A stretch of DNA of 64,000 nucleotides from Struthio camelus (Eukaryota > Chordata > Aves > Struthioniformes > Struthionidae): contig NC_090954.1 of assembly GCF_040807025.1 (NCBI RefSeq), positions 13,223,501 through 13,287,500 of the forward strand. The letters are read 5' to 3'. Below are positions 18,001 through 64,000 of this stretch, one piece after another. A program made the translations under genes and the position numbers. Each line of letters begins with the position of its first letter. Position 1 is the stretch's first letter. The notes beneath the pieces are model-generated. The model had not been told where the DNA came from and ran no database searches. It saw only the letters and a program-made list of their open reading frames with translations.

Positions 18001-20675
18001 TGATCCTGGGCTCCCTTATTTAACAGGACGGGAGCACCTCTCTATGCAGTGTTTGCCCTAGAAAAGGCAAGACGTGCAGCATGGCCATCCTGGGGAAAGT
18101 GGCACAGCACACAGCCAAATCCAGCCCACTTCCTATCCTGAATAGCCGCATCGACAAATACATCCTCCTCACTTCACACTCACACGAGCCATCTCCTGCT
18201 CCCTGTCCCTCCACAGCTAAGCCTGGGTGAGGGCAACCATGGCCCAAAAGATGACCTCAAGGGACATTTTCCTGCAACTTCCAGAAATAGTTCAAACATT
18301 GTTTGCATGTAACATTTTTTGACATGAACTGTATGCAGACACAGTCTGTTGGACTACCATACAAGACAAAACCTGAGAAGAGACATAACTATGACAATGA
18401 CAGAGAAGGTCCAAATATTTGTTTCTAAGGCCAAGCAGTCCCTGAATTTCATTTGTTGGACAAGATTGAAAAATGGGACTATCCCGTAAAATGCGATCCC
18501 CTTCTGAAGAAGCAACATTTTAAACTAGAGGATCATGGTCCTCTGCCAGGAAGCCAGGTAGCATGGAGCCTAGCAGGAACGGAAGGAGCACAGGCCAGGA
18601 CTGAGCATCCCTGGCCAGGTGTAAATCAGAGCCCTGAATAGGATCATGTGGGTTTTGCACCCTGCTCAGCTAGGCAGAACCTCCTTCCCCTGTTCCCAGG
18701 CTGACAATGATTGTCTCCTTGCTGGTCTCCCCCCATAGGTGTGAGAAGCTAGCCGAGGAGTGCCAAGACAACCCATGCCGAAATGCAGGGCGCTGCGTGA
18801 GTGCCCAGGGCTCTGTCCATTGCATCTGTCCAGCGGATTACCAGGGGGACTACTGTACACAGCCCATCATCACCCCCGCCATTGTGCCTACACAGTGGGC
18901 TGTCAGCCCAGAGGAGATCGCGGAGGGTGTGGCCGGTGTGTTGGGGGTGGTCATCCTTGCTGTGGCTTTTGTATTCATCCGCAAGCGCTACTGCCAGCGG
19001 GCCAAGGCGCACAAGCCTGTGGCCCGGGAGGACCCAGACCTACTCTCCAAGAGCGAGTTCTCCAAGAGCGTGGGTGTGGGCACCCAGGCTGTTCCACCCA
19101 TTGAGCTCAACATCCTCAGTGACACAGCACACAACGATCTGGACCGGGCCTCGCCAGAGCAATGCAAACGCACCAGCACTCCCGAGTTTGTCACCTTCAA
19201 CTCAGCCAATGCCCCAAAGCACCGGGGCACCATCGTGTGCAGCGTGGCACCCAACTTGCCCCCTGCTGCTCCCCCCTCCAACTCCGACAACGAGTCCTTC
19301 ATCAAGTGCACCTGGGCCAGGGAGGAGATGGGTTCGTAGCCACATCTTTTTCTTGTGCTTACAGGTTCCCTTTCCCCCCTGAAGTGGATCTAGAGTTTAC
19401 AAACGTAAGAGACCAACAGCATAGGTTAAAGCCAAGTGAAACATGGACAAACGCTGCCCAAGGCCTGCTAGGGTCCCTTTGTTAGCTCTTCCCTCCCTGC
19501 TCACCAGTACATCCCAATTTTGACCCTTAACTGGCTCACTCCCCTACACAATCTATAGGGGAAAGAGAAAACCACTAATGCACAGCCTGCATTCCCGCAC
19601 AGCCAGGGGCAAAATACCCTGTAAAAGATAATAGTGGAGCTAAGGAGAAGAAATTGAGATCCTAGAAGCTAGTGTGATTTTTAGAGGACACATTTGCATC
19701 AAATACCCATACTCAGGGTTGGTTCCTCTCTCCCCATCCAAGAGCTCGCTGGAAGCTCAGCAGCAAAGACAGCGATTAGAAGAGAGTTCAGAAGGGGAGA
19801 GACCCAGTGGATCACCTGCTCTGCCCCCATAGCTTCATCATCCAGGCTTTTACATATTGCCTGCCATAGGAGGAGTGCCATAGGCAGGAGTGCTACCATT
19901 CCTAGACTTGCACAGGCCAGAGCAGGGCCACATCCCCTCATTTTCCAAAGCAGCAGAGATCAGCACCTGCAAGAGCCAATGCTCCCCTCATCCTCCCCTT
20001 TCCCCACCCCTCCTCTCTTCCCTTCCTACCACGTGTTCTGCAAGGTCAGACTCATATGGAGGGAATGAGAGGGAGGACAAGAGAGGGAAAAATGACAGTT
20101 TGGAGCAGGAACAGCTGTTAATGTGACTCTGTTTTATTCCAGTCTACCCAGCAGAAACAACCTATTGGCCACCCCGGTACCTGTCATCAGACGTCCAGGA
20201 ATATTCCCACTATGAAATCATTCAAGGCCCCCCCACGTCCTCCTCCCACCCTCCTCTCCCCCCACTGCCCCCTCCACCAGCGGACACGGAACCGGTCGCT
20301 CTTTATGGGGGCTTTCCCTTCCCGCTGGACCAGAGCAATAAGCGGGCCCCCATCCCACCCCGCTATAGCAACCAGAACTTGGAGGACTTCTTGCCGCTTG
20401 GCCCTGTGGATGTCGGAGCCTCTCAGTGCCAGAATGAATACACTGCCATCAGCTACTACCCAGCCCAGCTGGTGCAGGGCGAAGGTGTCCCTTACCAACC
20501 TGACCCGGGGTACAAGCGGGTGAGCATGCGCCTGAGTGTGGCCCAGCCCTCCTACGCAGATTGCGAGGTGGGCCACCCGCCCAGCATTCGAGCTCAGCCG
20601 TTCCCACCCCCCAACTACGAGGGCTCCGATATGGTGGAGAGTGACTATGGGAGCTGCGAGGAGGTGATGTTTTAA
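1..20675 (+). CDS. FAT2: FAT2, protocadherin Fat 2, C-terminal third (13 coding exons; 5' part outside the window)
   Basis: Spliced coding segments are 1-35, 847-1080, 1935-2324, 3673-3887, 4569-4706, 5361-5504, 6230-6427, 7559-8366, 9175-9320, 13367-13808, 16332-16485, 18739-19331 and 20143-20675. They join in one frame with GT/AG borders and give about 1,342 residues ending in a TAA. Domain order is: five and a part cadherin repeats plus a degenerate juxta-LamG repeat, laminin G, three EGF-like modules, one transmembrane helix, and a ~340-residue cytoplasmic tail with proline-rich stretches. This is the architecture of the Fat1/2/3 family (Fat-like adhesion receptors; cell-cell adhesion, front-rear polarity and collective migration). 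The assignment to FAT2 rests on the convergent SLC36A1 neighbour, which is the known FAT2 linkage in human. Full-length family members are about 4,300-4,600 residues, so two thirds lie to the left. FAT1 or FAT3 are the alternatives and are less likely given the synteny. Confidence 0.93.
847..1080 (+). CDS. FAT2: FAT2 exon: end of one cadherin repeat, start of the next
   Basis: The acceptor is TTTCCAATAG and the donor is AAG before GTGAGT; both ends are in phase 1. It encodes LDREQ, then the calcium-binding linker DTNDNAPRF, which closes one cadherin repeat, and then the first strands of the next repeat up to ARDLDEG. The XDXNDNXP motif is complete here, so this inter-repeat joint should bind calcium normally. 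Confidence 0.92.
1104..1129. repeat. T-rich run in FAT2 intron
   Basis: This is a nearly pure T tract of 26 bases with one G interruption, about 25 bases after an exon. A matching A tract lies at 1856-1874 in the same intron. The two could pair in the transcript, but each is simple sequence. Confidence 0.8.
1856..1874. repeat. A run in FAT2 intron
   Basis: This is a 19-base A tract 60 bases before the next FAT2 acceptor. No retroposon-like body or target-site duplication is recognisable beside it. Confidence 0.8.
1935..2324 (+). CDS. FAT2: FAT2 exon: cadherin repeat with degenerate linker, start of next repeat
   Basis: The acceptor is ATCCTTCCAG and the donor is ACGG before GTAAGA, phase 1 at both ends. 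The exon completes a cadherin repeat ([17 protein letters not shown]) and closes it with DLNEYLPVF where the family motif is DXNDNXP. The second and third positions of the NDN triplet are replaced. The following repeat begins [18 protein letters not shown]. The altered linker suggests weaker calcium binding at this joint, which is an inference. Confidence 0.92.
3673..3887 (+). CDS. FAT2: FAT2 exon: cadherin repeat, linker DINDHAPEF
   Basis: The acceptor AATGCAG is followed by GT, which completes glycine from the previous exon ([16 protein letters not shown]). The exon ends ACG before GTAGGA in phase 0. It contains the cadherin linker DINDHAPEF and the opening [11 protein letters not shown] of the next repeat, which carries the conserved glutamate of the calcium site. 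Confidence 0.9.
4569..4706 (+). CDS. FAT2: FAT2 exon: middle of a cadherin repeat
   Basis: The acceptor is CCTAACAG and the donor is GAGGAG before GTGAGT; 138 bases, phase 0 at both ends. It encodes the repeat core with the DXD-like calcium residues ([17 protein letters not shown]) and the LDREE motif, so the domain continues directly into the next exon. Confidence 0.92.
4995..5165 (-). mobile_element. Ancient CR1 LINE 3' fragment, reverse orientation
   Basis: The stretch resembles the reverse complement of old amniote CR1 3' ends. It has an AATCAGAGTATTATAGAA-like start, then AAAGGTCATCTGGACCATCCC and CTTGACAGATATTTGCCC. It is heavily diverged and lies inside a FAT2 intron. Recognition is by remembered consensus phrases only. 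Confidence 0.55.
5361..5504 (+). CDS. FAT2: FAT2 exon: end of cadherin repeat with canonical [10 protein letters not shown]
   Basis: The acceptor is AAATCCTCCAG and the donor is GTGCAG before GTAAGC; 144 bases, phase 0. It holds the second half of a cadherin repeat ([11 protein letters not shown]) and a fully canonical calcium linker, [10 protein letters not shown], then the first strand of the next repeat (NYSVVVQ). Confidence 0.93.
6230..6427 (+). CDS. FAT2: FAT2 exon: penultimate cadherin repeat, first half
   Basis: The acceptor is CCCTATTTCAG and the donor is GTCCAG before GTATAG; 198 bases, phase 0. It starts [12 protein letters not shown], the conserved second strand of a cadherin repeat, continues with the SDRDSPENG calcium loop and ends YLLQVQ. 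It joins in frame to [11 protein letters not shown] of the next exon. Confidence 0.92.
7559..8366 (+). CDS. FAT2: FAT2 large exon: last degenerate cadherin repeat and region before laminin G
   Basis: The acceptor is CCTTGACAG and the donor is AACG before GTGAGC; 808 bases, phase 0 to 1. It completes the penultimate repeat and enters a final cadherin-like fold ([26 protein letters not shown]). The joint between them reads [10 protein letters not shown] and lacks the DXNDNXP calcium motif. About 170 further residues before laminin G include a cysteine-containing segment ([16 protein letters not shown]) and end EQICSCN. This matches the juxta-LamG region of Fat-like proteins. Confidence 0.93.
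9175..9320 (+). CDS. FAT2: FAT2 exon: start of laminin G domain
   Basis: The acceptor is CTAATTCCAG; GA completes glycine. It encodes [15 protein letters not shown] and a typical LamG jelly-roll strand pattern ([21 protein letters not shown]), ending TTGGAG before GTACAT in phase 0. The NGT sequence is a potential N-glycosylation site. Confidence 0.92.
9321..13366 (+). other. FAT2: FAT2 intron, 4.0 kb
   Basis: This intron interrupts the laminin G domain. It contains A runs at 11000-11023 (24 A) and 11934-11951 (18 A). Open frames here are short and show no recognisable protein. No RNA gene or repeat family was identified. Confidence 0.75.
11000..11023. repeat. A24 mononucleotide run
   Basis: This is an uninterrupted run of 24 A in the large FAT2 intron, the longest homopolymer noticed in the window. 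It is followed by GGAAAAA. No retroposed gene body precedes it. Confidence 0.85.
13367..13808 (+). CDS. FAT2: FAT2 exon: rest of laminin G and start of first EGF module
   Basis: The acceptor is GTGTTTTGCAG and the donor is AGTG before GTAAGT, phase 0 to 1. It carries the LamG signatures [18 protein letters not shown] and [13 protein letters not shown]. Then comes a cysteine-rich linker and the first half of an EGF module ([12 protein letters not shown]). The 4.0-kb intron before it is the largest FAT2 intron in the window. Confidence 0.94.
13809..16331 (+). other. FAT2: FAT2 intron, 2.5 kb
   Basis: This intron splits the first EGF module. A 225-codon open frame (14006-14683) falls here but matches no family I know, has no splice context, and lies in a moderately GC-rich stretch. 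I see no other feature. Confidence 0.7.
16332..16485 (+). CDS. FAT2: FAT2 exon: EGF module 1 end and EGF module 2
   Basis: The acceptor is ACCCTTTCCAG and the donor is GAAAG before GTAAGG; 154 bases, phase 1 to 2. It finishes the first EGF module ([14 protein letters not shown]) and encodes almost all of the second ([15 protein letters not shown], then [14 protein letters not shown]). The six-cysteine spacing is intact in both. Confidence 0.93.
16486..18738 (+). other. FAT2: FAT2 intron, 2.3 kb
   Basis: This intron lies between the second and third EGF modules. Nothing recognisable was found in it. Confidence 0.7.
18739..19331 (+). CDS. FAT2: FAT2 exon: EGF module 3, transmembrane helix, proximal cytoplasmic tail
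   Basis: The acceptor is CCCCCCATAG; its first base completes arginine. It encodes a third EGF module ([13 protein letters not shown] to DYQGDYC), a spacer, a hydrophobic helix ([18 protein letters not shown]) with a basic stop-transfer RKRYCQR, and the first ~130 tail residues. The tail contains FVTFNS at 19187-19204, which fits the WAVE-interacting receptor sequence. The donor is G before GTTCGT, a weak match to consensus but the only one that keeps the frame to the last exon. Reading on into the intron meets TAG at 19337-19339. Confidence 0.9.
20143..20675 (+). CDS. FAT2: FAT2 last coding exon: distal cytoplasmic tail
   Basis: The acceptor is TTTTATTCCAG; TC completes valine and the exon runs 176 codons to TAA. 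It holds a proline-rich block ([10 protein letters not shown], near 20250-20280), which could bind SH3 or EVH1 domains, the Fat-family tail motif NQNLEDFLP, several tyrosines, and the C terminus CEEVMF. The last three residues V-M-F fit a class II PDZ ligand pattern, which is an inference. Confidence 0.93.
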
Positions 20676-21775
20676 CAGCGACTTGTTCTCTAGGTGAGAA
20701 GGGAAGTGCATCTCCACACAGAACATTGCGCAGGGGGCTAGCACGTGCTGCTGAGGGGAGGCTCGCCTCCTGGCTTACAGCATCTCCCCCCCGCACAGTT
20801 GGGTTGTAATTTGGCCTGGATCTTTGCCCCCCACTGCCCTCCGTGGCGTTCCTGCTGCTAACGGAGGGCAAACGCTCCGGCCACTGCCAGAACATGGAGA
20901 ACACACCTCGGATGCCAATGACTAACATGTCTTCCTTGCCAAGGGGACTTTCTCTGACGCTGAGCGGGACCTGAACGTACTGCCTCCTCTCACAGCGGAA
21001 CCATCCACCTTGGCTGTCAGGAGGAGGAGGAGGAGAGCAAACATTGCAGGCCTGGCAGTAGCTGTGACAGAGAAGGCACAAACAAACCAGCACTGCACAG
21101 ACTGGGAGTCCCCAGGCTGAGATAGCAGGGGCTTCCCCATCTCCAGCTCTGGCACTGAGGGCTTGCGTTAGGCTAATGATCTGCCCAACGGAACAGTTCA
21201 TTTGATGCAAACCCTCTTCCACGTTTGCTCCCCTTGAACCTAAGGCAAGGGAGAGAGAAGACAGAAGTGCAGCTGGCCCCATCAGCATGTCTCTCACTCG
21301 GCCAAAAGAAGCCCAAGGAAAAAAAGAAAAGGCCATTTCTACAGAGAAACCGAGCAACAAACCCTGAGGCCAAGGCACAGAGACATCACGTGGCTCTCCA
21401 CGGCTCTCTTGGTCCCAAGCTGAATGCCACTGGTCCATGGCCCTGCCACCTGCCCAGGGCTCCCTGGGACACCAAGGCATGGCCAGACTGTGCCAAAAGG
21501 ACTGCTGATCCAGCCACAGGTTACATGCAACAAACCACAGGCACACAAACGCAAACCCTGGGCACTGGTGCGCGTGGTAGAGCGAGGGCCAGCAGCACGC
21601 GGCACCGCCTCCGTGAGGCACGGCGGCAAGGCTAACGAACGTGGGGTTTGCCCGTTTTCCTTGTGCTTGGGAACACGTTGTTTCTTTGTGAGAGATTTTC
21701 TTTTTGGTTGGTTGCTTGATTTTTTTTGTTGGTTGATTTTTGGAAAATAATAAAGAGTTTGTTTTTTTTATTATT
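20676..21775 (+). other. FAT2: FAT2 3' untranslated region
   Basis: About 1.1 kb runs from the stop codon to just past an AATAAA. The end is inferred from that signal and the T/GT-rich stretch immediately after it. A 490-codon open frame on the opposite strand crosses this stretch but looks like chance (see rejected items). Confidence 0.65.
21749..21754 (+). terminator. FAT2: FAT2 polyadenylation signal AATAAA
   Basis: A canonical AATAAA lies about 1.07 kb after the FAT2 stop. It is preceded by T-rich sequence and followed by GTTTG and a T run, the usual layout of a cleavage site. Confidence 0.7.
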
Positions 21776-22139
21776 ATTATTTTACTTGATAGCTCTGGGA
21801 TTCCCTTGTAAACAGCACTCCGCTGCCTAGCTCCAGCTAAGGAGAGGCAAAGGAATAACGTTTCATTTTGGACGTCAGCATCCTGCACCCCAGCGTTTCG
21901 AGGCCTCCAGAGAAGTACCATGAGCTCAACTCGTCTCTGAAGAGCCCGTGAGGGCCGTGGAGAGGGCAGGCTGGCCGCAGCCTGCCCTCACGGGGACGGG
22001 CACGAGCCGCCGGTGCCGCAAGCTAGGGAGCGCCGGCCTTTTGCTGAAGGGACCCAAATCCACCCCTGCCGGGATTCACATTCCCATCCCCAGCCCAAAA
22101 CACCTGAGAGAAACAGGGCCTCATCTCATTTCTGAAAGG

Positions 22140-22700
22140 AAAGCCGCAGCCCTTGAGGAGACAACCGTCGCCCACCTACCTCGCCCGTCACGAAGCCACA
22201 CGCTGCCGCGGGGGCAGGCCGGGGTTTCGCGTGGGCACCGCCTGGCCCGCACCCCCTGCCTGCGGCTTGGCCGCGGCCTGGGCAGGGGCCAGGACCACCC
22301 GAGCACGTCGGAGGCGTCCCCGGGGCGCCCACCCGGCCCCCGGGGTGCTCTGCAGGCCGCGTGGGCCCCTGCCCCGCCGCAGGACCCACCTGGCTGCCGC
22401 CGGCCCTCCGAAGCGGTGCGTTTCCACGGCTCTCCGTGCCGGGGCTGCGCCAGGCCTCCGCCTGCGGCACGCCGGAATATTTTAACAAAGCCCCCCCCAG
22501 CTCGCTGCCTCCCCACGCCGCCACCTCTCCAAGGGATCACCGCCGACTGGCCAACAGGCTCTAGCCATCTCCGAATTTATGCAGCGACAGCCGATGACAT
22601 CACTAAAGCGCAACTATGCTCTGAGCGTCAGTGATGTCATTAGCTATAGTCACAGAGACAGCAGAGGGTGGACACGGGGCGGGAGCAGCCTCCAAAGTCT
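22140..22700. promoter_or_regulatory. Orphan CpG island downstream of FAT2
   Basis: CpG dinucleotides are dense from about 22140 to 22480, in GC-rich sequence that contrasts with the flanks. The island begins about 0.4 kb past the FAT2 polyadenylation signal and 2.4 kb before the melatonin receptor relic, which has the same orientation. No exon or transmembrane-coding frame could be read in it. It may be the relic's old promoter, a promoter of an unannotated transcript, or a 3' CpG island of FAT2; the sequence does not decide. Confidence 0.6.
22594..22640. promoter_or_regulatory. Inverted pair of CRE-like sites with perfect 11-bp arms
   Basis: ATGACATCACT at 22594-22604 and AGTGATGTCAT at 22630-22640 are exact reverse complements separated by 25 bases. 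Each arm contains TGACATCA, one base from the CREB/ATF site TGACGTCA. The pair sits at the downstream edge of the CpG island. It could be a duplex transcription factor site or a hairpin. Confidence 0.5.
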
Positions 22701-25106
22701 GACTAACCTCAGCCCCGAGGGCCCCACAAGTCAGAGCCTCGTGACAGCCACAAGGCCTCATCGCAGCGGCAGCTGGCTCGTGGGAAGGGCCGACCACAGC
22801 CTCGAAACACGTTCCCCCCCCCCCCCCATCACAGTGGGACCCAGCCGCAGGGTCCGGCAGCCTCACACCACCAAGGGCGGCCTTCCGGGCCGGCCCCATG
22901 TAGAGGAACGCTGCTGGGAAGTGCCCTGGGGGGACGGGGCTTCCTCTGGGCAGGAAGGAGGCGGCAGGTGAGCCCTAAGGGCTGCCAAATCTGTGGGGTG
23001 GGCTTGGAGGGATGGGTTGTCCCTCCTCCTCCTCGGAGGGAGATGCAGTCTGAAGCACAGCAGCAGCTGCTGGCCCTGCATGGCTTCTGGGCCAGGTGCA
23101 GTGGTCCCGGCCCGGCATGGAGGGGAGCGTGGTGTGGGGGAACCACTCGGCTGGCTGGTAACCCCTGGGAGGGTATCGGAGCTTGGGGGAGAGGAGAAAG
23201 GGTTAAGCAGGCACAGAGTAACGCCTGCCTTAGCTTTCCCCACTCTGCATCTCCTACTAGGCAGTGTTGGTGTTCCCAGGACTCAACTTCTTCCCTCAAG
23301 TTTTCCCAAGCAAGGATTGCCAATCCGTCCTGCAAGGACCAAATCTGTCCTGCAGTCCCTTTATTCACGAGAGGACAAGCCAGCACTGCTGAGCAGCTGT
23401 GGCATGTCAGATTCAGTTGTCTTGCAGCCCTAATCCAGAGATGGCAAATCCTGGCTCCTCTTTACATGCCTTTGACAAGTTCCTTATACCTGTCTTCTTC
23501 TGCCTCTCATCTCTTCTGTGTACTTTTAACAGAGACACTATTACATGCTCTGCATGCATTCACAGTCCTGTCACTAACGGCACTGAGCGCTCGAGTCATG
23601 CCAAGTACTCCCAGTTATTATACAAGCTGTGAAATTTTGTTGTGCCGCACATGGTGGCAGGTAGAAACTTTGGTCATCCTTTGACTTCTGGCCTTTCAGT
23701 GAAAGCAATGCCATCCACGCCAGAGAGACTGGTTCGATGACTTTTGTTTCAGTGGTGTAAAGTTTGCAAAACCTTGAGTCTCTGTTAAAGGCACTTGTAA
23801 TGCTGGCTGGACCAGCATCACAGTTTGGTCTGCATCGATTCCACTGCTAAACAGACCAGAGACACAGGAGCTTTGCTGCTGTGCCCATCCGCACACAAGC
23901 TGCTAGTGAACTCTTACATCTGCAGATCCTCATTTACAAAACCATCACAGCGTACCATGCTGCAAGGAGGACTGCAGATAGCTCCAAATAACCCTCATTT
24001 TTATCCTGCTGCAATTAGCCGAAGCAAGCGAGAAAACCAGTAGAAGAAACTGCTGGTGGAAGAACAAAGCCCATTAGCAGTGGAATCAGCTGGGATGCAT
24101 CTCCAACCGGCAAACTCGAGTGCGTTCCACAACTCAAGCCAAACCCCTGTATCTCCCTGCTCTGCTCCCACACAGAGAGGGCTCAAACCCACCTCCTTGT
24201 TACAGTGACCTGCTGCTCCATACCTTAGTGCCGCCTGCTTATGCAAACCCTTGACTTCAAACCAAGTTGGTATCATCTGCTTTGGGCATCAGCTGCCACC
24301 CAGAGCAGCACTGTGCTGCCATATCTGCAAGGAAAACAGAGGTTTAACTCCCTTTCCTCTCAAGTTTCCTTTTGCAAATTTAGAGTCTGAACAAGGCTTG
24401 TGGGGAGGGGAGAAAAAGTTCCTCATCCTGGGAATTTAATGTACTGTAAGTTTCTCCATAAGAAAAAATAAATCCTTGCCAGCTCTCAGGGAACATCCTT
24501 CCTGCAGGACAGGAAACAGATTTGTGTATTTATTATTTTCTGCCCATGCCACATTGCTCTACCAGCAATTCAAACACCGCTCTCCTCCGAAATGCTTATT
24601 CCCAGAAAGGGTGCTTTGGTATTAGTCTTTATTTTGATCTGGATTTCTCCAAAAAACAACTGAAAAAAATCCTTCCTTCCCTGAGAAATACAGCCCTCTG
24701 TCATACCAGGCCATTATCAGCGCACACGTTTTGCAAAGTGGATCATACCAAGTTGCACAACCTTCAGGGCCAGGCACTTTCTGACCAGCTTCCAGCTACA
24801 TCAAGGTCACAGGGAATTCACCCACTCCTAGTCTACACCGCAGTGATGAACCGGGCAGGGGTGTGAAGACATGATGGTGGCAGGCATATCTGAGTGAAAA
24901 CACAAGGAAGCCTTCCCATCACTACAGCCAGGGATAATTTAGAAGCCTCCTGCTTCCCTCCCCAAAGCCGTCCCAGCAATGCTTGCAGAAGTGCCTGTAT
25001 GCAGACATCACTGAAGTAGCTCTGTTTAGCCAGAGACAACATGATTCCAGGGTGGGCTGTTGCAATACAAGTACTAGTTTTAACTTCCCTTTCTCTTCCC
25101 CTACAG

Positions 25107-25900
25107 GCAATGCCTTTGTGGTAAGCTTAGCCATTGCAGACTTGCTTGTGGCTTTCTACCCTTACCCACTGGTCCTGATGAATTTTTTTCACATGATGGT
25201 TGGGTAACGGGCTACATCCACTGCCAGATCAATGGCTTTCTGATGGGTATGAGCACCACTGGGTCAGTCTTCAACATCACTGGCATTGCTATCAGCCACT
25301 ACTGCTACATCTGCCACAGCCTGATATGACAAGCTTTTTTCAAGCATCAACATCCTGTACTACACGGGACTGGTCTGGGCACTCACTTTGCTGGCCATTG
25401 TGTCAAACAACTTTGTGGAGTCCCCGCAATACGATCCCTGGGTGTATTCCTGCACTTTTTCCCAGTCTGTCAGTGCCCTGTATATCACCATTTTGGTGAT
25501 GGTCCACTTCTTACCCATCACTATTGTCAGCTACTGCTACCTGAATATCTGAGTGCTTGTTATCCAGGTACAGCAGAGAGCGAAGCCAGACATTTGCCCC
25601 CAAATGAAGCCCCATCAAAATCTTCACCCCATCAGTATCAGAAACTTCTTGACCACGTTCATGGTCTTTGTGCTCTTTGCCATGCGTTGGGCACCATCAA
25701 ACTTCATTGGCTTTGTGGTAACAATGAAGCCTACCTCGAATTCCTCCATCCCAGAATGGGTCTTCACCTCCAGCTATTTCATTGCATATTTTAACAGCTG
25801 TCTGAATGCGGTGATTTATAGGGCCATGAACCAGAACTTCAGGAAAGAGCACAAGAGAATCATACTGGCTGTATTCCAGCTGGCAAACAGGACTGACTGA
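25107..25900 (+). pseudogene. Melatonin receptor pseudogene, exon 2 relic (FAT2-linked MTNR1 ohnolog)
   Basis: A splice acceptor (TTCCCCTACAG, ending 25106) leads into NAFVVSLAIADLLVAFYPYP, the hallmark start of exon 2 in melatonin receptors (TM2). The TM3 region (CQINGFLMG, FNITGIAI, CYICHSL), YDP/YSCTF of loop 2, TM6 ([16 protein letters not shown]) and TM7 ([24 protein letters not shown]) follow in order. The gene is broken. Two extra bases (or one missing) near 25193 shift the frame and bring on TAA. Two bases are missing from the codon at 25324. TGA at 25550-25552 replaces a conserved TM5 tryptophan. The G-protein-coupling NRY is SHY. The tail ends soon after helix 8, at TGA 25898-25900. 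Exon 1 was not found. A 7TM receptor of the Gi-coupled melatonin family is certain. The subtype (not obviously 1A, 1B or 1C; perhaps MTNR1D/Mel1d) is inferred from linkage. Confidence 0.9.
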
Positions 25901-28900
25901 AACTGAACCCAGGGGACCGAGTCTAGAGGGAAAGAAAACTAGATCTAACTGCACACAGAAAGATAGACCAATCCTTTACCTCCCTTTTAAGTGATGTACA
26001 GAGTGCAGTTAGAGCTAAAGGAGCTAATGATGCATCTCTGTCATAACGTGGTCTACACCAGGAATGCTTAGGTCCCTCCACACTTCATAGCGCTTAATTG
26101 GAAAAGGGCACTGGAAACAGGGCAGAATAAACAATCTATGGAAGGTACCACTTTAGCAAATCACCTAGATCCTTCAGGACTTTTTCCCCCATGTTAATTT
26201 CTCTGTTATTCATCAAGTCTGCAAGCAGAACTTAAGAGCATGTGTGGACGCTCAGTCAAGAGCATAAGACCCCCACATATTTTACACTAAGTTATTTCTT
26301 TTGAACATAGGCACAGCTATTGTCTCACTACTGGGCAGGTTTCTGATTCCTGAAATCAAGTTGCACACGTGAATACCAATGTCCATCCACGTGAGGATTG
26401 CCCTGGAGAGTAACGAGCGTGAACAGGAGAGTATAAGGAGGCAACTCCAGAGCAGCATCGTGATTATCACTTCTGCATCCCGTCATGGCAGAGGTCAGCC
26501 AATCTACCCAGCACATCGGATCCAGGAGCTCTTAGAAAAGCCTACAGTGGATGACACGAATCACAGCTGCTCTGCTTCTTCCTGGTGTCTTGAGTTGGGC
26601 TTTCCTTACTTGTAACGCACTTTAAAAAAAATCTCTGACCATATGAGTTTCTTCTGGCGTTTCTGGGAATAAACTCTCATTGACTATAAGATTACTGGCA
26701 AATAAAACTAAACCAATGTGCCAAAGGAATTCAGCAGTGGGCTGAGAGGAGGGAAAGGATTTTCTTCAAGAAGTAATGTGCCTTTGAAAGTCTCATCAAG
26801 AGAGACTCCCAGAGATGAATTCATAAGAGTCTCATGGTTACCCGGAACCATAGATGATACGCATGTTTCTCCTTCTTTCAAGTCATGCTTGAACCTCTGT
26901 GGACGTCAAGTTCACTCGAGTAACTGACACTGAAGTAACCTCACAGGACATTAGGAGACTTAGACACACCTGATAGGAAGCCACCAGGAGCAGAGCAAAT
27001 TCAAAGTTGAGAAGGAATATACAGTCTTAACAAGCCTTTATAAACCCCACACGCATGATAGAAATTATATTTGGTACAAGTTGAAGCTCAGAGGAGACTA
27101 GACCTGGCAAACCTTGGGTGAGGCATTAAGACTAATTACTCCTGAAGAGATCACGGAACGGCCCTGCTCCCTGCTTTAACCTCACCTCTGCCAATACTTT
27201 GGAAAGAAGAAAAAGTCCAAGTCCCACACAGACCCCTGGTTACATGGTGATAAGGCATTGGTATTGACACAACAGACCCCTGGACAATGGAGGAGGGATG
27301 AGTGGAACATGCTGGCTCTTTCCTCCTGATAACAGAGGGCTGCCCAGCAATAGAAACTTGTTTTCTTATATATGCAACAACTGCATGAGATAAATATGTC
27401 AGGCTGTTCTCCCTCTTAGCACACATATGCTTTGGACTGTTTATTCCCACCTCCCTCTGTCTCTGGCCACCTAAGTCATATTTGTGCCTGCATCCGGGCC
27501 ACAAAGGAAGGCAAGTTTTAAATAACCTTTTGCATGTACTTTGTGATCAGGAATCACAAGTGAGCCTAAGTGACAACTGGCCTTCAAATACATCCAAGTG
27601 TTGTTTTGGAAAAGGTGCTTTCTAATAGTGGATTCTGCTATTCTTTCTCCTGCAGCAGAGTGTGATCACAAGGGAAAAGGAGGTTGTAAGGCATCTTGAC
27701 CCCTGGGACAACCTGCCCCAGCATGACATGAGGCCTCACGCTCAGCTGGTGGCAGCACCTAGCAAGGGTGAGACATCTCTTCCACAGTCCTCTGAGAAAC
27801 GTGCAGAACAGATCATCTTCTTACCTATTCCTTGCCACATTTTGGCCAGAAACATATGCATTTTGCTTGAACAAGAGCCATGGCTCAAATGGCAACACGG
27901 AAATCCTAGTATAAGACCCAGTTATCCAATAGCCCTATGGGATGCCAGTATACCACACCACAGTGAGGGCTGGTACATATAGACACAAATATGGACACAC
28001 AGGATGGACTGATATTTGTATCATACTGCTGTTGAAAGAAAATACTGGAAATACAAGTGGGAACGCTTCAGAGCACTCACACAGGCTAGGAGAGGAAATC
28101 ATGCAATTTCCTGCCCATAGTGAGATCAGATCATCATCTGGGAACCTTGGATCACTGGCTGAGTGCAGTAGATGGGTGCACACCACCTACTTTATTTCAA
28201 ATTTCCCGGATCTCCTTCTGGCCAAAGGAGAAGATACGTTCCCTTCCTGGGGGCAGTCAAGCCCCTACAGCCAACAGGGTGGGACAACCTTCTTTGTAAA
28301 TTCAAGCAGCCCCATTTTACCTCTTCCTCATTCATTGTATCAAAAGAGCAAAGTGGTAATGAACGACATGTGAATCTCCTCTTCGTTCCTTCTCCCCAGA
28401 CACAAATAAAGTAACAATTTCATGAAATGTTTTCATTTCATTTTTGTCACAGCAGCACTAGGAACGTGCCAGGGTTGTGCCTGGGAGGTTCAGAAGGACC
28501 CTTCCAAGCCTCCAGCTCCCCGACACATGGTAACACTCCTGGGAACCAGCAAAGGGACATCTCCAAGTCTTAAATACCCATTACACCCATACAGCCCACC
28601 TGTACCCAACTACATCCATATTACACGTGCCACCAACACTCACACCCAAAAACACTCTCCCAGCACTGACTGACCCAAACCTCAACATTTCGGCTGCAAC
28701 TTGATTGCTGAACACATTGGCGCTGAACTCAGGGATGATATGCAATAAAGGACAAAACCACAGGGAGGTGTGAGATGCCCATGTAGGATTAGCCAAGCGT
28801 TTTCCCCTCAAACAGTTGCGCTATGGACATTGTGCTCCTTCACCCCCTGCAGCCTTTTCTGATTAAAAATCTGCATCACATACATCGCTCCTGCCTGTCT

Positions 28901-31730
28901 CCCCATACTATCTTTTCCCAGCCCAATGCATTATAAAACCACATCTGAGAACAGTAGAAATGTTTCATGTTGATAACTACTCCATTTGCCTGATGCAAAG
29001 ACATTGAGCGCTCAGCTAGGAATTATCACCTCTTGGCTAGGACACAACTCTCAGACACCATGGAAATCATTGTATCTTCCATTTACTACTGTCAAAACCT
29101 CAAAAACATCTTACCTGTGCTAAAAATAAGCCCACCCTCAACTTCATGGGCCTTCAGTGGTTGGTGTGACTATTTAAAGAAACAGAGGGGGACTGGGATA
29201 CTAAGAACAGCTTTTTTTGTTGTTGTTCTGAGAGTTGCTTTCAGGCTGAAGGATGCCAAAACATTTTACAGAGCACAGAGATAGCTCTGTCTGCTGGGAA
29301 ACACAGCCACCCCTGGGCAAGGACAGCACGAGGGGAGGGGGAGCCCTGCAGGCAGTGACACCATGCAGAGCCCAAACTAGCCAGTGAGAGCCAGACAGCA
29401 GCTTGGGTACATACACATCCTTAATGGCACAGATAAACTCTTTTACTAAAACAGAACGGCAGCTTTGAAGTGACCCAAACTGTCTGAAAAGTGCCAACCG
29501 GAAAGGGCAAAGCAGGCTGACCCGGGGACTGCCCTCACGTCACTGTCTGGTCAGCATCTCTCCTCAACGAGGGCCCCTTTCACCAGGGCCTTCCCTGCTC
29601 TAGCCAAGTGGGAGCAAAGCCATCACCATTACAGCTACCCAGCAAACAGCCCTCAGGCTCATCTGGAAAATTTGGTAGGGACACTCAGCTCAGTTGACCA
29701 GCAGCCATGAGAAAATTGCTACAAACATCCCCTCCTAGGGCCAAAATCAGAGAAGGGGAATTGCATCTGGGACACGCAGGGACCATCTCACTGGACGGCC
29801 CTACTGGTGGCCTCAGCCAAGACAGGAACTGGAACCAGAACGGTCAGCACCTCAGCTGCCTGGCCAAGGCATTAACACAAGGTTTGCAAGGCAATGCACC
29901 ATCTTTCTTTAATAGCCAGCTCTGTTTATCAGAAATCACTCCCTGCCTGGATTAGGGCAGATATTTTAGCTGCTTAATTTTAACTCTTAAATCCCTCTCA
30001 ACCTCTTCCTCCTAGAAGGGCACAATCCCATGATGTTACCTTGTGAGCAGCATTTTTACCTTCAGGTATCTCTAGGATGTTTGGAGAAACCGAGGGGAGA
30101 TCCCAGGGGAAGGGGGATAACAAAAAGAGCTTTTCTTATTCAAGAGTTGCTTTCAGGCTGGAGAAGGTTGGACTAAAGACCTCCCAAGGCACCTTCCAGC
30201 CTAAGTTACCCTACAACCCCAAAGCACTTTACAAATATTACTCAGCAACAGGTCCAGAAATGCAGACACTTCTGGGCAGGGCATGAACAGTGCAGGAAAA
30301 CACATTGAAGCATCGCACAACACAAAACTCTAAGCCCCCGACCAAACTGCACAACATTCATCCTGTCACAGCACTCTGGGCTGCAAACCCCCCAGGCGGC
30401 GAGGGGCTTGCCCCACTCCCAAAAGGCCCCAGGGATGCCACAACATCCTCAGCGCATTCCTACCTGCCTGGCTCGAGGGACACTCAGCATGTAGAGGTAC
30501 TGAGAAGAGAAAGGCTCACTGCCCTCCATCCTGCTCAAACCACCTCCCAGCCACAGAATGAGCACCACTTGGCATGATCAGACCTCCTCTCTGGCCCAGC
30601 AACCCCGTTACCCCACCACAGCTGGGGCTAATCCCAAATTGAAGCAGGGTGGGGGCACTTTGCTCAGAGCAGCCAGCCCTCAGGGCCACCTTTGGCACCT
30701 GCTAACAGACAGCCTGGCTTTCCTCGTGCTGCCAAGCCGGGCCGGTGGTCAACTTGTGAGCTCTGTGACTACCTGTGTTTATTTTTAACAAATAGAAACT
30801 GGGTTTATTAAAGCTGAAATTCTAAAAGCAGCCAGGAGCAAGCTTAACCCCTTGTGCACAGTGGTTTACATGGAGACAGGGCACTCACAACGCAGAGGGA
30901 AGGAGTCCCTGGTGGCTGTCCAGTCCCCATCTCCTGCCCAGTTTCTGCCTTAGCTCTCCAGCATTTTCAGCAGTCATCCCTGTGCCAAGCCACCTGGCCA
31001 GGGTCTCATCAAACTGGGGGTGCAGAGCAGAGGAGAGGAGAGCACCTCCGTGCCCACCTCCTGCCTCCTTGATAAGTTACTCATGGGAACAGGCAGCCTC
31101 AGCAAAGGTATTTCACAGCTGCTCTGTGAAATTAGCCCTTTAGTATTCAAGCCACAAAAGCCCAGAGCTGCTATGTTCTCCAAAGGTCATTTGCAGGTTT
31201 TCAAACCAGCAGCCCTGTTGTCGGTGTGCTGGCCCCCCAGGAGCCCCATACAGGGAGAGAGGGTGCTCAGGGAATGCTGTCATGCATGGCAGTGCAAACC
31301 CGCTTCCCTTCTCTGTGCCCTGAAGGGTGCTGGAGCCCCACTCCCCACCTCAGCACCGTGACTTCATTTGCAGGAGAAGCAATAGCTGTTTAAAATACCC
31401 AAAGGAAAGGTGTTTAAAAACTGCTGAAACACCCATTGAGAGGTCAACACTGTTGTTTAAGGCTGCTCCTCAGCACCCTTCTCTTCTGCCCTAATCAGGG
31501 CTCCTGGCTGCAGCTGCAGTAATTCACTGCAGTCAGAAATACCCCCACAATAACCATGAGTTGCCTGTACTCAGTTGGCTGCTCCTCATGCCCTGGGGTT
31601 AAGGTGGTCTTAGATCCCCCTCTGGAAACCCCATCAGTTTTTGTACTTTAGGGGGACTTCTCCACTTGGGATCCACATCTTTAAGAGTTAACTTTTTTAG
31701 CATTAATTTCCCACATGGCCCTGATAAAGT
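25901..31730. other. Intergenic region between receptor relic and CR1 LINE
   Basis: No coding segment, RNA gene or intact repeat is recognised in 5.8 kb. Open frames are all short and lack family motifs. A stretch near 30145-30235 resembles a decayed CR1 3' end (GGTTGGACTAAAGACCTC, then CCTTCCAGCC). A related 18-base phrase (GAGTTGCTTTCAGGCTG) recurs at about 29232 and 30144. Confidence 0.6.
30145..30235 (+). mobile_element. Possible decayed CR1 3' end
   Basis: GAAGGTTGGACTAAAGACC, then CACCTTCCAGCCTAAGTTAC, parallels the CR1 closing phrase (GGTTGGACTAGATGACC, then CCCTTCCAACC). It lacks a clear terminal microsatellite. Short and diverged. Confidence 0.4.
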
Positions 31731-32787
31731 GAGGTGGCTTGAGAACTGGCTGGATGGCAGAGCTCCGAGGGTTGTGGTCAGTGGCAAAGAGTCTAGTTGG
31801 AGGGCTGTAGCTGGGGGTGTCCCCTGAGGTCAGTGCTGGGTCCAGTCTTGTTTAACTTATTCATCAATGACCTGGAGGAAGGGATAGAGCGCACCCTCAG
31901 CAAGTTTGCTGATGATCCAAAACTGGGGGGAGAGGCTGACACACCAGAAGGCTGTGCTGCCATTCAGAGGGACCTGCACAGGCTGGAGAGCTGGGCGGAG
32001 AGGAACCTCCTGAAGTTCCACAAAGGCAAGTCCAGGGTCCTGCACCTGGGGAGGAATAACCCCACGCACCAGTACAGATTGGGGGTTGACCTGCTGGAAA
32101 GCAGCTCTCCAGAGAAGGACCTGCGAGTCCTGGTGGACAACCAGTTAAGCAGGAGCCAGCAGTGTGCCCCTGTGGCCAAGAAGGCCAAGGGTACCCTGGG
32201 GTGCATTAGGCAGAGTGTTGCCAGCAGGTCGAGGGAGGTGATCCTGCCCCTCTACTCAGCCCTGCTGAGGCCTCCCCTGGAGTACTGTGTCCAGTTCTGG
32301 GCTCCCCAGGACAAGAGAGACAAGGCACTAGTGGAGAGAGTCCAGCGGAGGGCTACAAAGATGATGAGGGGACTGGAGCATCTCTCCTAGGAAGAAAGGC
32401 TGCGAGAGCTGGGCCTGTTTAGCCTGGAGAAGAGAAGACTGAGAGGCGATCTCATCAACGTGTACAAGTATCTGAAGGGAGAGGGTCGAGAAGATGAGGC
32501 CAGCCTCTTCTCCGTGGTGCCCAGCGACAGGACAAGAGGCAACGGGCACAAACTGAACCACAGGCAGTTCCATCTGAACCTGAGGAAAAACTTCTTCACT
32601 GTGAGGGTGACTGAGCACTGGCACAGGTTGCCCAGAGAGGTGGTGGAGTCTCCTTCGCTGGAGATATTCAAAACCCCTCTGGACGCAATCCTGGGAAATA
32701 TGCTCTAGAGGACCCTACTTGAGGAAGGAGGTTGGACTAGATGATCTCCAGAGGTCCCTTCCAACCTAAACCATTCTGTGATTCTGT
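31731..32787 (+). mobile_element. CR1 LINE, 5'-truncated, relatively young
   Basis: About 1.06 kb encodes the C-terminal part of the CR1 reverse transcriptase: [18 protein letters not shown], the catalytic FADD box, and [17 protein letters not shown]. The frame then continues through [14 protein letters not shown] to a natural end at TAG 32706-32708. One in-frame TAG (32388-32390) replaces the tyrosine of the usual SYEER stretch; otherwise the frame is open across more than 900 bases. The element ends CCATTCTGTGATTCTGT, the expected CR1 tail repeat. CR1 is the main LINE of birds, crocodilians and turtles and moves by target-primed reverse transcription. 5' truncation is normal for the family. 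Confidence 0.95.
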
Positions 32788-35700
32788 AAAGACACACTGC
32801 AAGAGCATGAATTATTCAGTGCCATGGGAACAATCCCAGCTACAGCGATGCTGGCACAGCTCCCAGACATCCTATCGGAGCATGGGCTAGATCTCACCTC
32901 CTTTGATCCATTGGGTGCATCTGCAGCAACTATGTAGCCACCACATTGCAACCATATGCACATGCCACACGGAGAGAGGCTTCCCAGATCCCTTGCACCG
33001 TCCCAAAAGCCCCGTCCCGGCCACATGCCACGGCAGAGACAAAACCCAAGCCCGCTCTCCCAGGCTGTGAGCTCATAAAGGTAATCATGCAGTCATCGCT
33101 CTGACCACAACCTACTTGCACAAACCTGTTCAAAAACTTTTAAGAGCAGCAAGGCTGAAGCACTTTTATTTTGAAACCCTCAGTGGAAAGCGTCTCAACC
33201 TGGCACAGGGGTGGGAAAAGCGCAGGGAGCTCCCTTGTGCAGGGGCCAGCCGTGCAGACAGTCTGGTTTCATTCAAGACTCATTTTCTGTCCCTCTGCTA
33301 AAGACATGCCAATAAAGCATGCACTGTCCAGGTGTCCGTGGGAGCCAAAGAGCTTGGAGGCTGGTGAAACTCCCACATGTTCAGAGAATCTGCACAAAGG
33401 ACTGAGGGCTCAACACTCCTCCAGTACGTTATACTTTTCTGTGAAGGAGAGGGTGGTTTTACACATGCCACTTGTAACAGAACCTCCCACCTCACATCGC
33501 AGAGCGTTTTCACATAAAAAATAGATATTATTTATTAATTGAAGATATACGAATCAGGTACAGCACCAGAGACGGGTTCTTCCACTGGGCAGCTACACAT
33601 GCTGTACCCTGACAATATCCATAGGCACAAGACATGTACATTAATCATTTCTATATCTACACAATTTCCTTGGTTAGAGCGCAGCCAACAACACACAAGT
33701 GCAAGTTTTTCCATTCACCCAGTCCCGCATCAGGCCCTTGCAGCTCAGTCCCAGAGCTCCTCAGTCCCACCAAGGCTGCTAGCCCCCATTTCCAAGCACT
33801 CCCTACTCATCACTTCTTCCCTTCAGCATGATAAATTGAAGTACCTCACAAACCATTTAATGCTCCTGTGATATTCCACAGCCTCCGCAGAAGCGAGGTC
33901 TTTGCTGGCGCTTGCACAGTAAGTCGGGACGCTACGTATCCAGCCAGGAATCCTGAAAACGAAGCAGTGCAGCTCCCAGCGTTCAGCATGTGCCACCCAG
34001 TAAATGCAAGTGATTTAGTGTGCTCCCTCCAGCACTGGCTTAAGCCAATCCTTTCACCAAAGCAATAAATTCCCAGGCTGACAGCTTGGGCAGCACGTGC
34101 ATGTGGAAGGACAGTGGGGGACAGGTCACCAGTGCATCAAGGAGCCTTAGAGCAGGTACCCATCATCACAGCCAGTTTTCCGCTATGAACCATTGAGCCT
34201 AGGAGGTCTCTGAGGCTCTAACGCAAAGTCATTCTGGAGTGCAAATCTGTATCTCACCTCATCGGCCGCACCATGAAGCAACTGAGCCAGGCTCTGACAC
34301 CTGGCCAGGAACAGGCAAAGCCTCCCAGAGACAATGTGCAGAGATGGTCTTAATATTGCACTTGTTTGGGACGTAGTGTGTGCTAGAGCTCCCTCCTAGC
34401 CCTCTGCCTGGCCTTGCCTGCTGCAAGACCCAGGTCCTTGCTGTCATCCCCCAAGGTGACCCGCCACATTGAGGATTTGTCTTAGAGGTTCCCTGTCACT
34501 GTGACCCAGCAACACGGGAGCGGGCTGAAATCTTCACCAGAATAGATTTAGAGGAAACAGGATGAGCTTTGTGGCTACAGGAGCCCCGAGAGAATAGGAA
34601 GCAGGTGAAGGACCATAAACAAAACAAAAATAAAACGAAAAAAAGCTTTTGGAGCAGCTGAGCTACCTACCCAGATGACTGCTGACAAAGCCTGCAGAAG
34701 TCAGCAGCCCCACAGACTCGCACAGCAGCAGCTGGCTGAAGCCAGAGTGAGCAAATGGGAAGCAGGTCTCAGGCAGCAGGGCAAGTCACTGAGTTATCAC
34801 CTGGTGAGGAGATGAGCTGCAGGGGATGCTTCTCTTGGCCACAGCTCATCCTTAGCATCCATCCCCTCCTGAAGCCAAAATATTTTTGCACTGCTAGGAA
34901 AAAAACATCCTACGGAGAATGCATTTGCTCTCATCTGCCTGTCGCAAAAAACTCCAGCAGAAGGGTAAAGGAGAACAGAAATACAGGAACTGTGCTCAGA
35001 GCAAGGGTGCCCAGGGAGCCCCTGAAGGATAGCAGGGGCAGCATTTGACACCAGCAGCAGCCCAGTCCCCAGCATGGGGATTTTTGTGCAAGAAATTGAA
35101 GTAAATAAGTTGCAGGGAACTGCTGTGTTCAGAACTGGCCAGGACTAGCTAAGACAGCAGTGACTCCACGTCACTGGATGCTGGTGCACGAAGTCCAGCA
35201 GTTTGCAGGGCGCTGAGTAATCTCTCTCCCTAACTACAGCGGCTTTGCTTGTCTATGCCTTTGGCCTCCTCTTCCCCAAAGAGGAAAGCAGCAGCCTAGT
35301 GGGGCCACAGCACTGGCTCAGCCCTCAGGAAGGGCCTGCCCCTCTGCAACACACAGCAGTGACAATGCGAGAAGCAAGAGGGGCAACAAGAGACGTGCCA
35401 AAAGAGAGCTGCCTCCTAACAGGAGACATGAAGCTGCATCAGAGGTAGAGGGTGTTTTCAGGAAGTGAGCAGGACCAGGAGGAGGGGGAAGGACCTGGTC
35501 TCCTTTTCATGATTTAGTATTCGGCAATGAGACTGCAAGTACAGCCAGAGAGGTGCTAGGCTAGCTCAGGGACTGTAAACAAGGCGTATTTCCATGCAGA
35601 GGCCTAGCACAGCAGTGACCTCCTGGGAACACCACTGTCCCACACAGCAGAGCACAACGGCACAGAGAGGGCTCCTAGCTGAAGATAACCAACTCGCTCG

Positions 35701-36709
35701 CTGTTTCAGAGTCCCATGCCCGGTTTGGTCCCTCCGAGTCGTGCAAACGCTTCAGGAAAAACATTCATCAGATACATGATCTAGAGGGGAGAGAAGTCAC
35801 TACTAAAGCTGTGGGCCAGGGTTTAGCAAGCCGTGCTGCTCAGTCTCAGAGCTGCCATGCCCAGCCCTAAGGCTCCGGCAGTCTGCCCTGCATTATGGCT
35901 TGCACAATGCTAGAGACAGCCGGAAGCAGAGGTGCAACACTCCCGGCACTGAGGCTGACAAGTGCCCAAAGGCACGGAGCTGCCAAATGCAATGCCCATG
36001 TCCTGGGATCTCCAGTTGCAGGAGAGCTAGGGGTGCCTCTCGCATCCAGGAGACATGGGACCCACACCCACCCAGGGGTGACCTGCTCTCCTTGTCCCCA
36101 GGACACTCCACACCTCAGGCACTGCTCTCCCTGCCCACAGGGGCAGAGGGAGGAGGCAACTCCATGCTCTCCAACCTGAGCTGAAGTTTCTCTGTTGCCA
36201 TCAAATAAAGTGCTGATGTAGGAGGAAAGAAAAAAAAATGGCACAGAGAAAAGCAGTCCTTGTTCCCTACCTCTGCTGAAAGAAAGTGGGGAATATGGGA
36301 AGGTTGGAACTAAAAAAAAATAAAAGTAAAATCTAGATTTCCTGGATTCCTCACCCCTCAAAGTGACTCTGTTTACATGGGTGCCAAGGGGGCCTGTTTT
36401 GCTATCTCCCCTGCCAGAAAAGTCCCTGAGGAAGGCAATACCCCAGCCACAGGCCAGACTTCACCTCCCCTGGCTCTAGAAACCAGCATGGAGACCCTGC
36501 TGCCACTCGAGATGGGTGGCAGTGATGGGTGGGGAGTGTGAGAGGCTTATCCTCTCGTCACCAGCTCAGCCTCATTCACATAGGCCAAAATAACCACATT
36601 TTACAAGGAGAGAGAGGAGAACGTCCCTAGGAAAGCAGCAATGCCCAGCCCCAGCGTGCTACCAGGCTCCAGCACAGCTTTCAGAGAGGTGCATGGGGCA
36701 GGAGGGCCA
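32788..36709. other. Region downstream of SLC36A1 stop, including possible 3' UTR
   Basis: No coding exon or RNA gene is recognised. Part of it, from 36709 down to about 33500, may be SLC36A1 3' untranslated sequence, because the first good antisense AATAAA after the stop lies at 33531-33536. Nothing else stands out. Confidence 0.45.
33531..33536 (-). terminator. SLC36A1: Candidate polyadenylation signal for SLC36A1
   Basis: TTTATT on the + strand is AATAAA on the - strand, about 3.2 kb past the SLC36A1 stop, with T/GT-rich sequence just beyond it on that strand. A second TTTATT lies near 33166. A long 3' UTR is plausible for this gene but is not proved by sequence alone. Confidence 0.35.
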
Positions 36710-60084
<23,375 letters not shown>

Positions 60085-60089
60085 GGTAC

Positions 60090-61000
60090 CTGGGGAGGGA
60101 GCTGCATCAGGGCTGACAGTGACGCCTAGCTCTGTGCCACCCAGCTCAGCCTCCTTGGGAGCAGCCATCCCTCAGGAGAGCCCAGCTCACACTGCCGGAG
60201 CAAGCTCTCCTTGAGGGCTTTTATACAGCATGCATTCCCTGCCCGCCCAAGCAATCACAGAGCAAGCATCTCCTGAGGTCAAAGGCTCACGGCACATTCC
60301 CTCTGGCTCTTCCCACAGGCTCGTGACCCCATTTCTGGTGCACCCACATGGGACAGGCTTGGAAACCAGCAGGAACAGCCACCTAGGCACGACCTACCTG
60401 CCCACTTTGACCAGGCAACGGAGGCATGCACCCCACCTGGCAGCACGGGTTGCTGAAGGCAGTGGGCAGGAACGGGACCGTGCCTCAGCAGGTCCCCTAC
60501 CCCACACTCCAAACTGGGGCTGCCAAGAGGATGGCCATGAAAGAGAAGCCGCTTTGAACCGCCACAGAGACTTTGCCAGGGCAGAGAAAGTTTCCTAACT
60601 TTTTTTAAATTAGACAGAACAAAAGTTTTTGATGCCCGTGGGCTGGAGCATATAGTCCATGTGCTGACAAGAAGCCACCAAAGGATGTAGAGACACGGAA
60701 GTGCCCAGGGGCCTCTGGGGCTCAAGCAATCCAGTGCTCTTATTCCAGAGCCATGCCCAGAGTAATCCTACAAACCAGGAGCACCAATGTGAGCATCCAC
60801 GAAAGACAAAAGTCTCCTGCCTCTTGGCTTAGGCTAAAAAGCAGTCAGCTGTTTTAATGCCCAGATTAACCCCGAGGAGTTCCCACTGCTTTTGCACAGC
60901 CTGCCGGCTCCCACTATGCACACGCCCCTCCCAAAGAAAGCATTTGCTTCATCTTAAAACAGCACATCAGCAAAGCAGGCAAACGGAAGGGTGGCTGGGG
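60090..61000. other. Upstream flank or 5' intron of SLC36A1
   Basis: If the AG at 60091-60090 is an acceptor, this stretch is the intron between a non-coding first exon and coding exon 1. No exon could be placed. Nothing else is recognised. Confidence 0.4.
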
Positions 61001-63700: not shown

Positions 63701-64000
63701 CCCTCCATCACACAGCATGCAGCCATATTCACATAAGCCACTGATTCCTTCCAGGGCAGAATAATTTAAGTGCTCCTTTTGCCAGGAAATTGGCAGCGCC
63801 TCTCTCATTAATAATAAAACCAGCCATCAGCCCAGGGAACAGAGCAACTCAAAGCGCTCTGACAGCAAGTGATTGCACAGTGGCAGCTGTACCACCTCCT
63901 CCCCGCTCGACCCACGGTGGGGCTGGACACTCGGCATGTTATTTGAAGTACTCGACAGCAATATTCTCTAGATAAAACACAATGCCGTTACATCAGTCTG
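63701..64000. other. Right edge, AT-richer flank
   Basis: The CpG density falls and no feature is recognised up to the window end. Confidence 0.5.

Follow-up and report, generated by a model that had tools for sequence, protein, structure and literature searches.

A 64,000-nucleotide stretch of the Struthio camelus genome (C13:13223501-13287500, hereafter the window, to whose positions all coordinates refer and which contains no N) carries a disabled exon 2 of a melatonin receptor gene, and the gene order there is FAT2 (+), the receptor exon (+) and SLC36A1 (-). The remnant is very probably a unitary pseudogene, namely MTNR1D (Mel1d), which died in its ancestral location, flanked by FAT2 and SLC36A1. 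The original prediction, made from the sequence of the window, had described this gene order and had taken the remnant for the FAT2-side receptor copy, MTNR1D/Mel1d, lost in place. The order was confirmed by domain, paralogue and PDB matches, and the proposed identity and fate of the gene are supported by synteny, residues and lesions. MTNR1D would once have encoded a working melatonin-sensing G-protein-coupled receptor, which would have lost its use and then decayed in place, and the CpG island of its promoter has apparently survived it.

When the exon was read through its breaks (with X at each of them) and compared to PDB, the top match was the human MT1 chain 7vgy (E=2.3e-98), and eight melatonin-receptor chains (MT1, MT2 and GPR50, the latter at 1.5e-63) ranked ahead of the best other receptor (E=9e-17). 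The relic is a member of the melatonin receptor family (MTNR), as the match is far beyond chance. The splice acceptor of the exon (CTACAG) is undamaged, and the exon boundary, a phase-1 intron after ...KLRNA/G, is identical to that of the bird 1A, 1B and 1C genes. Because of this intact acceptor and the intron phase common to the paralogues, the relic is not a processed copy. Searches of the species' own genome, which covered the 1.45-Gb assembly with its 262 contigs, gave six matches at E up to 1e-8: the relic itself (two rows, the second partial), the intact receptors on C4, C1 and C11, and a distant receptor on C24 (26%). The relic is a unitary pseudogene, being disabled and neither processed nor a duplicate, and no intact copy was found elsewhere in the genome. 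The exon and its lesions are located as follows:

25107 to 25900, plus strand: exon 2 of the very probable MTNR1D pseudogene, with the intact acceptor AG at 25105-25106 and a stop codon at 25898-25900
25193 to 25197, plus strand: first frameshift (+2), five bases where the relatives have one codon
25324, plus strand: second frameshift (-2), one base where the relatives have one codon
25550 to 25552, plus strand: nonsense codon TGA, in place of the tryptophan of all five intact receptors in the comparison
25610 to 25639, plus strand: imperfect 13-base direct repeat with a spacing of 17 bases, at the point where the third intracellular loop has gained six residues in frame

The gain at 25610-25639 is perhaps a local duplication, and the alignment of the relic also contains two single-residue gaps. 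Decay is apparent in the receptor motifs, where NRY has become SHY and the C of CWAP/CWGP has become R. At the sites invariant in the five intact receptors (three bird, two human), the relic keeps 110/140 and is altered at 30, while in a leave-one-out control the intact receptors were altered at 2, 3, 4, 11 and 21 of 142-161 sites and the relic at 30-36 of the same sites. Human MT2 was taken from chain 7vh0, which carries engineered substitutions (at two sites it has W and L instead of the F and C of the others), and the invariant-site count is therefore perhaps slightly low. The relic frame also stops about 29 residues short of the ends of the bird paralogues.

As to subtype, MTNR1D is much the best reading, because of the subtype residues, the residue at one diagnostic site and the position of the gene. 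The relic retains few of the residues specific to the living subtypes, namely 6/20 for 1A, 1/14 for 1B and 4/40 for 1C (one X position being omitted per class). At the 39 sites where bird and human 1A differ, it agrees with the bird at 13, with the human at seven and with neither at 19, and it has one bird-derived and one human-derived 1A state. At the position that corresponds to V291 of human MT2, with the numbering verified against 7vh0, the relic carries threonine, in contrast to the V or I of the five intact sequences, and the sections available of Denker 2019 (PMC6778780) report a threonine at this site in several Mel1d and only in Mel1d. The same source describes the Mel1d protein as shorter than those of the other subtypes, with which the short relic frame agrees. 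The few subtype residues kept speak against a late copy of any of 1A, 1B and 1C.

A phylogeny was inferred under Q.plant+G4 from 258 columns and six sequences (the relic, three bird and two human receptors, human GPR50 being left out). In the best tree the relic and 1A are split from 1B and 1C, with a Shimodaira-Hasegawa-like approximate likelihood ratio test (SH-aLRT) value of 92.5 and an ultrafast bootstrap (UFBoot) value of 93, and bird and human 1A are split from the relic (SH-aLRT 80.1, UFBoot 75), the branch of the relic being long (0.58). Among eight placements compared by the approximately unbiased (AU) test under JTT+G4, the 1A stem was best, positions inside 1B were rejected (p<0.001), and the stems of 1B and 1C, like the centre of the tree, lay near the limit (p=0.05-0.07). 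It had been predicted that the relic would fall outside the bird 1A, 1B and 1C clades; this held for 1B and accords with the few subtype residues, but for 1A it stands only in part, as a placement inside 1A was not rejected (p=0.18). Together with that p value, several points weigh against the assignment to MTNR1D. The support that puts the relic outside bird and human 1A is modest, and the tree compares the relic with bird 1A, 1B and 1C and human MT1 and MT2 only. Moreover, the Mel1d tail is described as having a conserved cysteine and a phosphorylation site (Denker 2019, as far as available; PMC6778780), while the last 11 residues of the relic contain no cysteine and have A where human MT1 has S, in a tail that aligns poorly and onto which the published positions were mapped by our own alignment. 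The missing features may be due to decay. Bird 1A, used as query in a scan of contigs from other genomes, yielded 15 pattern matches, none of them a relative.

The closest paralogue of the relic is MTNR1A (63.5% identity), and this, with the placement inside 1A left standing by the AU test, is what would be expected had a late duplicate of bird MTNR1A landed beside FAT2 and then decayed. Such an origin is nevertheless barely credible. The share of 1A-specific residues kept is far below that of the invariant residues kept (Fisher p=3e-5 for 6/20 against 110/140, the two site classes not being equally free to vary). In simulations of a 1A copy evolving neutrally from the start, an identity of 63.5% or less with at most one stop was reached with a probability of at most 0.048 over six values of K (substitutions per site), and of at most 0.0034 when no more than two frameshifts were also demanded (indel ratio 0.04); these simulations covered copies that became neutral at once. 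A duplicate of MTNR1A would in addition have to reach, by chance, the very position published for MTNR1D (PMC6602942, as far as that source was available). MTNR1D, dead in place, accordingly remains the preferred reading.

The same genome carries three living receptors. MTNR1A lies on C4 at 52.25-52.31 Mb (-) beside FAT1 (-), and MTNR1B on C1 at 213.14-213.18 Mb (-) in the order FAT3 (-), MTNR1B (-) and SLC36A4 (+). Both linkages had been drawn from the human map in the original prediction, the former as an adjacency and the latter as a mirror of the window, and both are thus present in Struthio camelus. MTNR1C lies on C11, a contig without any FAT match. The arrangement of FAT, receptor and SLC36 with the transporter on the opposite strand is hence seen twice, and that of FAT and receptor a third time; linkage was read from match positions, and the names FAT1, FAT3 and SLC36A4 follow this linkage together with published maps rather than trees. 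Exons of the Aa_trans domain occupy the plus strand of C1 at 212.92 and 213.00 Mb, whereas those of the window are on the minus strand; the genome-wide total of Aa_trans matches was 16. In each of the three living receptors exon 2 is open and encodes 289 residues, and exon 1 lies 38-64 kb upstream on the same strand. For chicken, a table in Sakai 2019 assigns mtnr1d to chromosome 13, 1b to chromosome 1, and both 1a and 1c to chromosome 4 (PMC6602942, available in part). Receptor matches were also paired on C40 (70.4 Mb) and C41 (89.9 Mb) at a near-constant offset of about 19.5 Mb (five pairs), and these two contigs would be W and Z sharing a large pseudoautosomal part, an arrangement that fits a ratite-like palaeognath.

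In all three living paralogues the 1 kb around exon 1 has a CpG observed/expected ratio (o/e) of 0.80-0.97 and lies within a CpG island. The window was scored in 630 one-kilobase windows with thresholds of CpG o/e >0.6 and GC >0.55, and only two clusters passed, nine windows over 21301-23100 and 23 over 60701-63900. The first of these is the following feature:

21301 to 23100, no strand assigned: orphan CpG island between FAT2 and relic exon 2 (nine one-kilobase windows)

Since exon 1 of the living paralogues sits in such islands, 21301-23100 is the expected site of the lost exon 1 and promoter, and this island, in which CpG o/e reaches 0.80, is likely the surviving putative promoter island of the dead receptor. 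The second island, at 60701-63900, is near the presumed 5' end of SLC36A1 and is probably the promoter of that gene.

Exon 1 itself, which encodes the first transmembrane segment (TM1), was not found by a genome search, by tblastn or by protein and DNA hidden Markov models (HMMs). Human MT1 exon 1 compared to the whole genome (E up to 1) gave three matches, the 1A, 1B and 1C exons at 67, 57 and 47 bits, and none on C13. A tblastn search for exon 1 over the window returned only chance matches from over-long, low-complexity queries (two clearly so, the third less so), and trimmed exon 1 queries over 20600-25110 reached at best 15.8 bits, as compared to 15.0-21.6 bits in 20 shuffles. The positive controls for the trimmed queries recovered the three true exons at 70-79 bits, although each query matched its own exon, and the controls of the protein and DNA HMMs were likewise built from the same exons. 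An undetectable exon 1 fits a decayed gene, as would be expected.

The undamaged acceptor and the high CpG ratio retained by the island would also suit an exon that is still in use, for instance one spliced from the island into a non-coding or truncated transcript. This is quite improbable, given that exon 1 was not found in the searches above and that the NRY and CWAP motifs are destroyed; the destruction of these motifs makes receptor function of the relic very unlikely.

The damage to the relic is light, and this bears on the time of its death. With one stop and two frameshifts as lesion input, and with assumed indel/substitution ratios of 0.04, 0.08 and 0.12, the best K was 0.06, 0.041 and 0.031, with upper 95% limits of 0.156, 0.105 and 0.08, respectively. 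The excess over paralogue pairs at codon position 2 is about 0.10 (0.19-0.21 vs 0.09-0.11), and K near 0.1 would likewise account for a fall in identity from 77% (an assumed value) to 63.5%, by arithmetic on the simulation. Taken together the damage is roughly 0.05-0.12 neutral substitutions per site, which, if the rate is like that of the kiwi, translates into a time on the order of 60-150 million years. The kiwi rate, 8e-10 per site and year, is a genome-wide average (PMC9550048), and among 48 birds the slowest neutral rate is that of the ostrich (PMC7601716). The faster rates of flycatcher (2.3e-9) and Galliformes (3.6e-9) (PMC8157837) would imply a younger death of MTNR1D, and a further source (PMC7116210) gives no usable bird rate figure; all four sources were available in part. 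Because the damage corresponds to about 60-150 million years, it favours, with moderate confidence, a loss of MTNR1D within the bird line.

Birds and crocodiles last shared an ancestor about 245 million years ago. A single death of the gene in that ancestor, as in Maugars 2020, would make the remnant equally old, and the pseudogenes reported near Fat2 in a few birds and one crocodile are in line with it (PMC7541902, in the part available). At 8e-10 and K near 0.2, however, first-order expectations are about five stops and 5-9 frameshifts where one and two are seen, with a joint probability of 0.006 to 0.0002, and, if living Mel1d was about 77% identical to 1A, so old a remnant should match 1A at only about half of its residues (the 77% being assumed, and the arithmetic our own). 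At a rate of 6e-10 the joint probability rises to 0.034-0.003, the higher value being that for the low indel ratio, so that a slow enough clock would permit an old loss. The simulations also yield fewer stops than the first-order numbers, 3.5-4.1 instead of 5.1 at K=0.2 and 4.3-4.9 instead of 6.5 at K=0.25, and the case against an old loss is for this reason weaker than those numbers suggest; with simulated stop counts the stop term alone is about 0.1 (own arithmetic). Besides the fewer simulated stops at the higher K, further points count against a death within the bird line: codon position 1 shows an uneven excess, of about 0.01-0.13 over the pairs (0.25-0.35 vs 0.22-0.24), and the age estimate rests on an assumed rate and an assumed indel ratio, the kiwi rate not being a neutral one. 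All considered, a loss in the bird-crocodile ancestor is disfavoured and seems unlikely, at odds with the suggestion of Maugars 2020. Loss within the bird line would be compatible with a more detailed scenario, possible but tentative and on balance doubtful, in which early birds still had a working MTNR1D, and birds and crocodiles each lost it late and independently, with its island still open in the present bird and perhaps driving a non-coding transcript without exon 1.

The flanking genes were recognized from the following exons and frames:

7556 to 8368, plus strand: FAT2 cadherin-region exon, upstream of the relic, with a self match of 100% in the own-genome search
18674 to 19339, plus strand: FAT2 frame with an EGF domain (PF00008, E=2.6e-7) and, by reading of the sequence, a likely membrane span
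20127 to 20675, plus strand: last FAT2 open frame, encoding the cytoplasmic tail and ending ...CEEVMF, assigned by position and reading
36770 to 36973, minus strand: SLC36A1 exon, end of the Aa_trans (PF01490) domain, by domain match
50502 to 50669, minus strand: SLC36A1 exon, middle of the Aa_trans (PF01490) domain, by domain match

The receptor exon hence stands between the end of the last FAT2 frame (20675) and the nearest SLC36A1 exon (36770-36973). The Cadherin match within 7556-8368 reaches 26.4 bits, which is below the Pfam cut-off of 28.8, and no Pfam family matched the frame at 20127-20675. A 271-residue FAT2 query from 7556-8368 found, in the own genome, itself, paralogues on C4 (46%; 52.37 Mb, minus strand) and C1 (41%; 213.37 Mb, minus strand), and a weak fourth match on C4 (23%; 17.8 Mb). 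Between the relic and SLC36A1, a remnant of the reverse transcriptase family RVT_1 occupies 31797-32390 (+), perhaps to 32708, at 27.4 bits (Pfam cut-off 29.6), and no Pfam match was found for the frame at 32391-32708; we take this remnant to be probably a bird CR1-type long interspersed nuclear element (LINE). The last 29 residues of an open frame at 45472-45927 (+) resemble the reverse transcriptase tail at 32 kb, and by reading this frame is likely a second LINE fragment. No RNA family was matched at gathering scores within the window. Two short tandem arrays were found in the 18-40 kb searched, both in FAT2 territory and irrelevant to the relic.

The Struthio camelus locus adds a well-preserved bird relic of the fourth melatonin receptor, so that the four ohnologous loci can all be seen in a single genome. 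The lightness of the damage to the relic speaks for a loss in which crocodiles had no part. If this is true, MTNR1D would have been lost separately in mammals, birds, crocodilians and caecilians (the last two according to the available part of PMC7541902), and it could be asked which change in clock, sleep or pigment control went with each loss.

Several elements of this account have precedents in the literature, the papers cited here being available in part. Sakai 2019 reports MTNR1D (MTNR1a-like) from gar, softshell turtle and anole, flanked by fat2 and slc36a1, and finds none in chicken (PMC6602942), which answers the prediction that other vertebrates would hold a receptor in this interval; the neighbours are identical to those in the window, but the gene is present in those species and broken in the Struthio camelus relic. 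Denker 2019 describes the FAT2-Mel1d tandem and the Mel1d regions of reptiles, frogs and fishes, and concludes from the chicken locus, and from searches among proteins, that birds lost the gene (PMC6778780). The FAT2 linkage, the threonine at the V291 site and the short tail are alike in the relic and in Mel1d, whereas the sections available of that paper mention no bird relic. Another bird-line unitary pseudogene at a conserved place is STK33 of neognath birds (Lautwein 2015; PMC4509753), which differs in being another gene and one that is alive in palaeognaths. Among the matches listed in a literature search for palaeognath or emu melatonin receptor pseudogenes, none mentions 'melatonin receptor'. 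The nearest precedent is Maugars 2020, in which Mtnr1d pseudogenes are reported near Fat2 in a few birds (hoatzin being named) and in Crocodylus porosus, and a loss in the archosaur ancestor is suggested (PMC7541902). The family, place and state of those pseudogenes are like those found here, whereas the light damage of the present relic indicates a later loss than the ancestral archosaur one. The words emu, ostrich and kiwi are absent from the main text of that paper, as far as it was available, and the Struthio camelus relic may already be in its supplementary tables. Already in print, as far as these sources go, are thus the position, the subtype, its loss in birds and, for a few birds and one crocodile, relics close to Fat2. 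What goes beyond them is the light damage, which points with moderate confidence to a death within the bird line, and the orphan CpG island at the expected site of exon 1 and the promoter.

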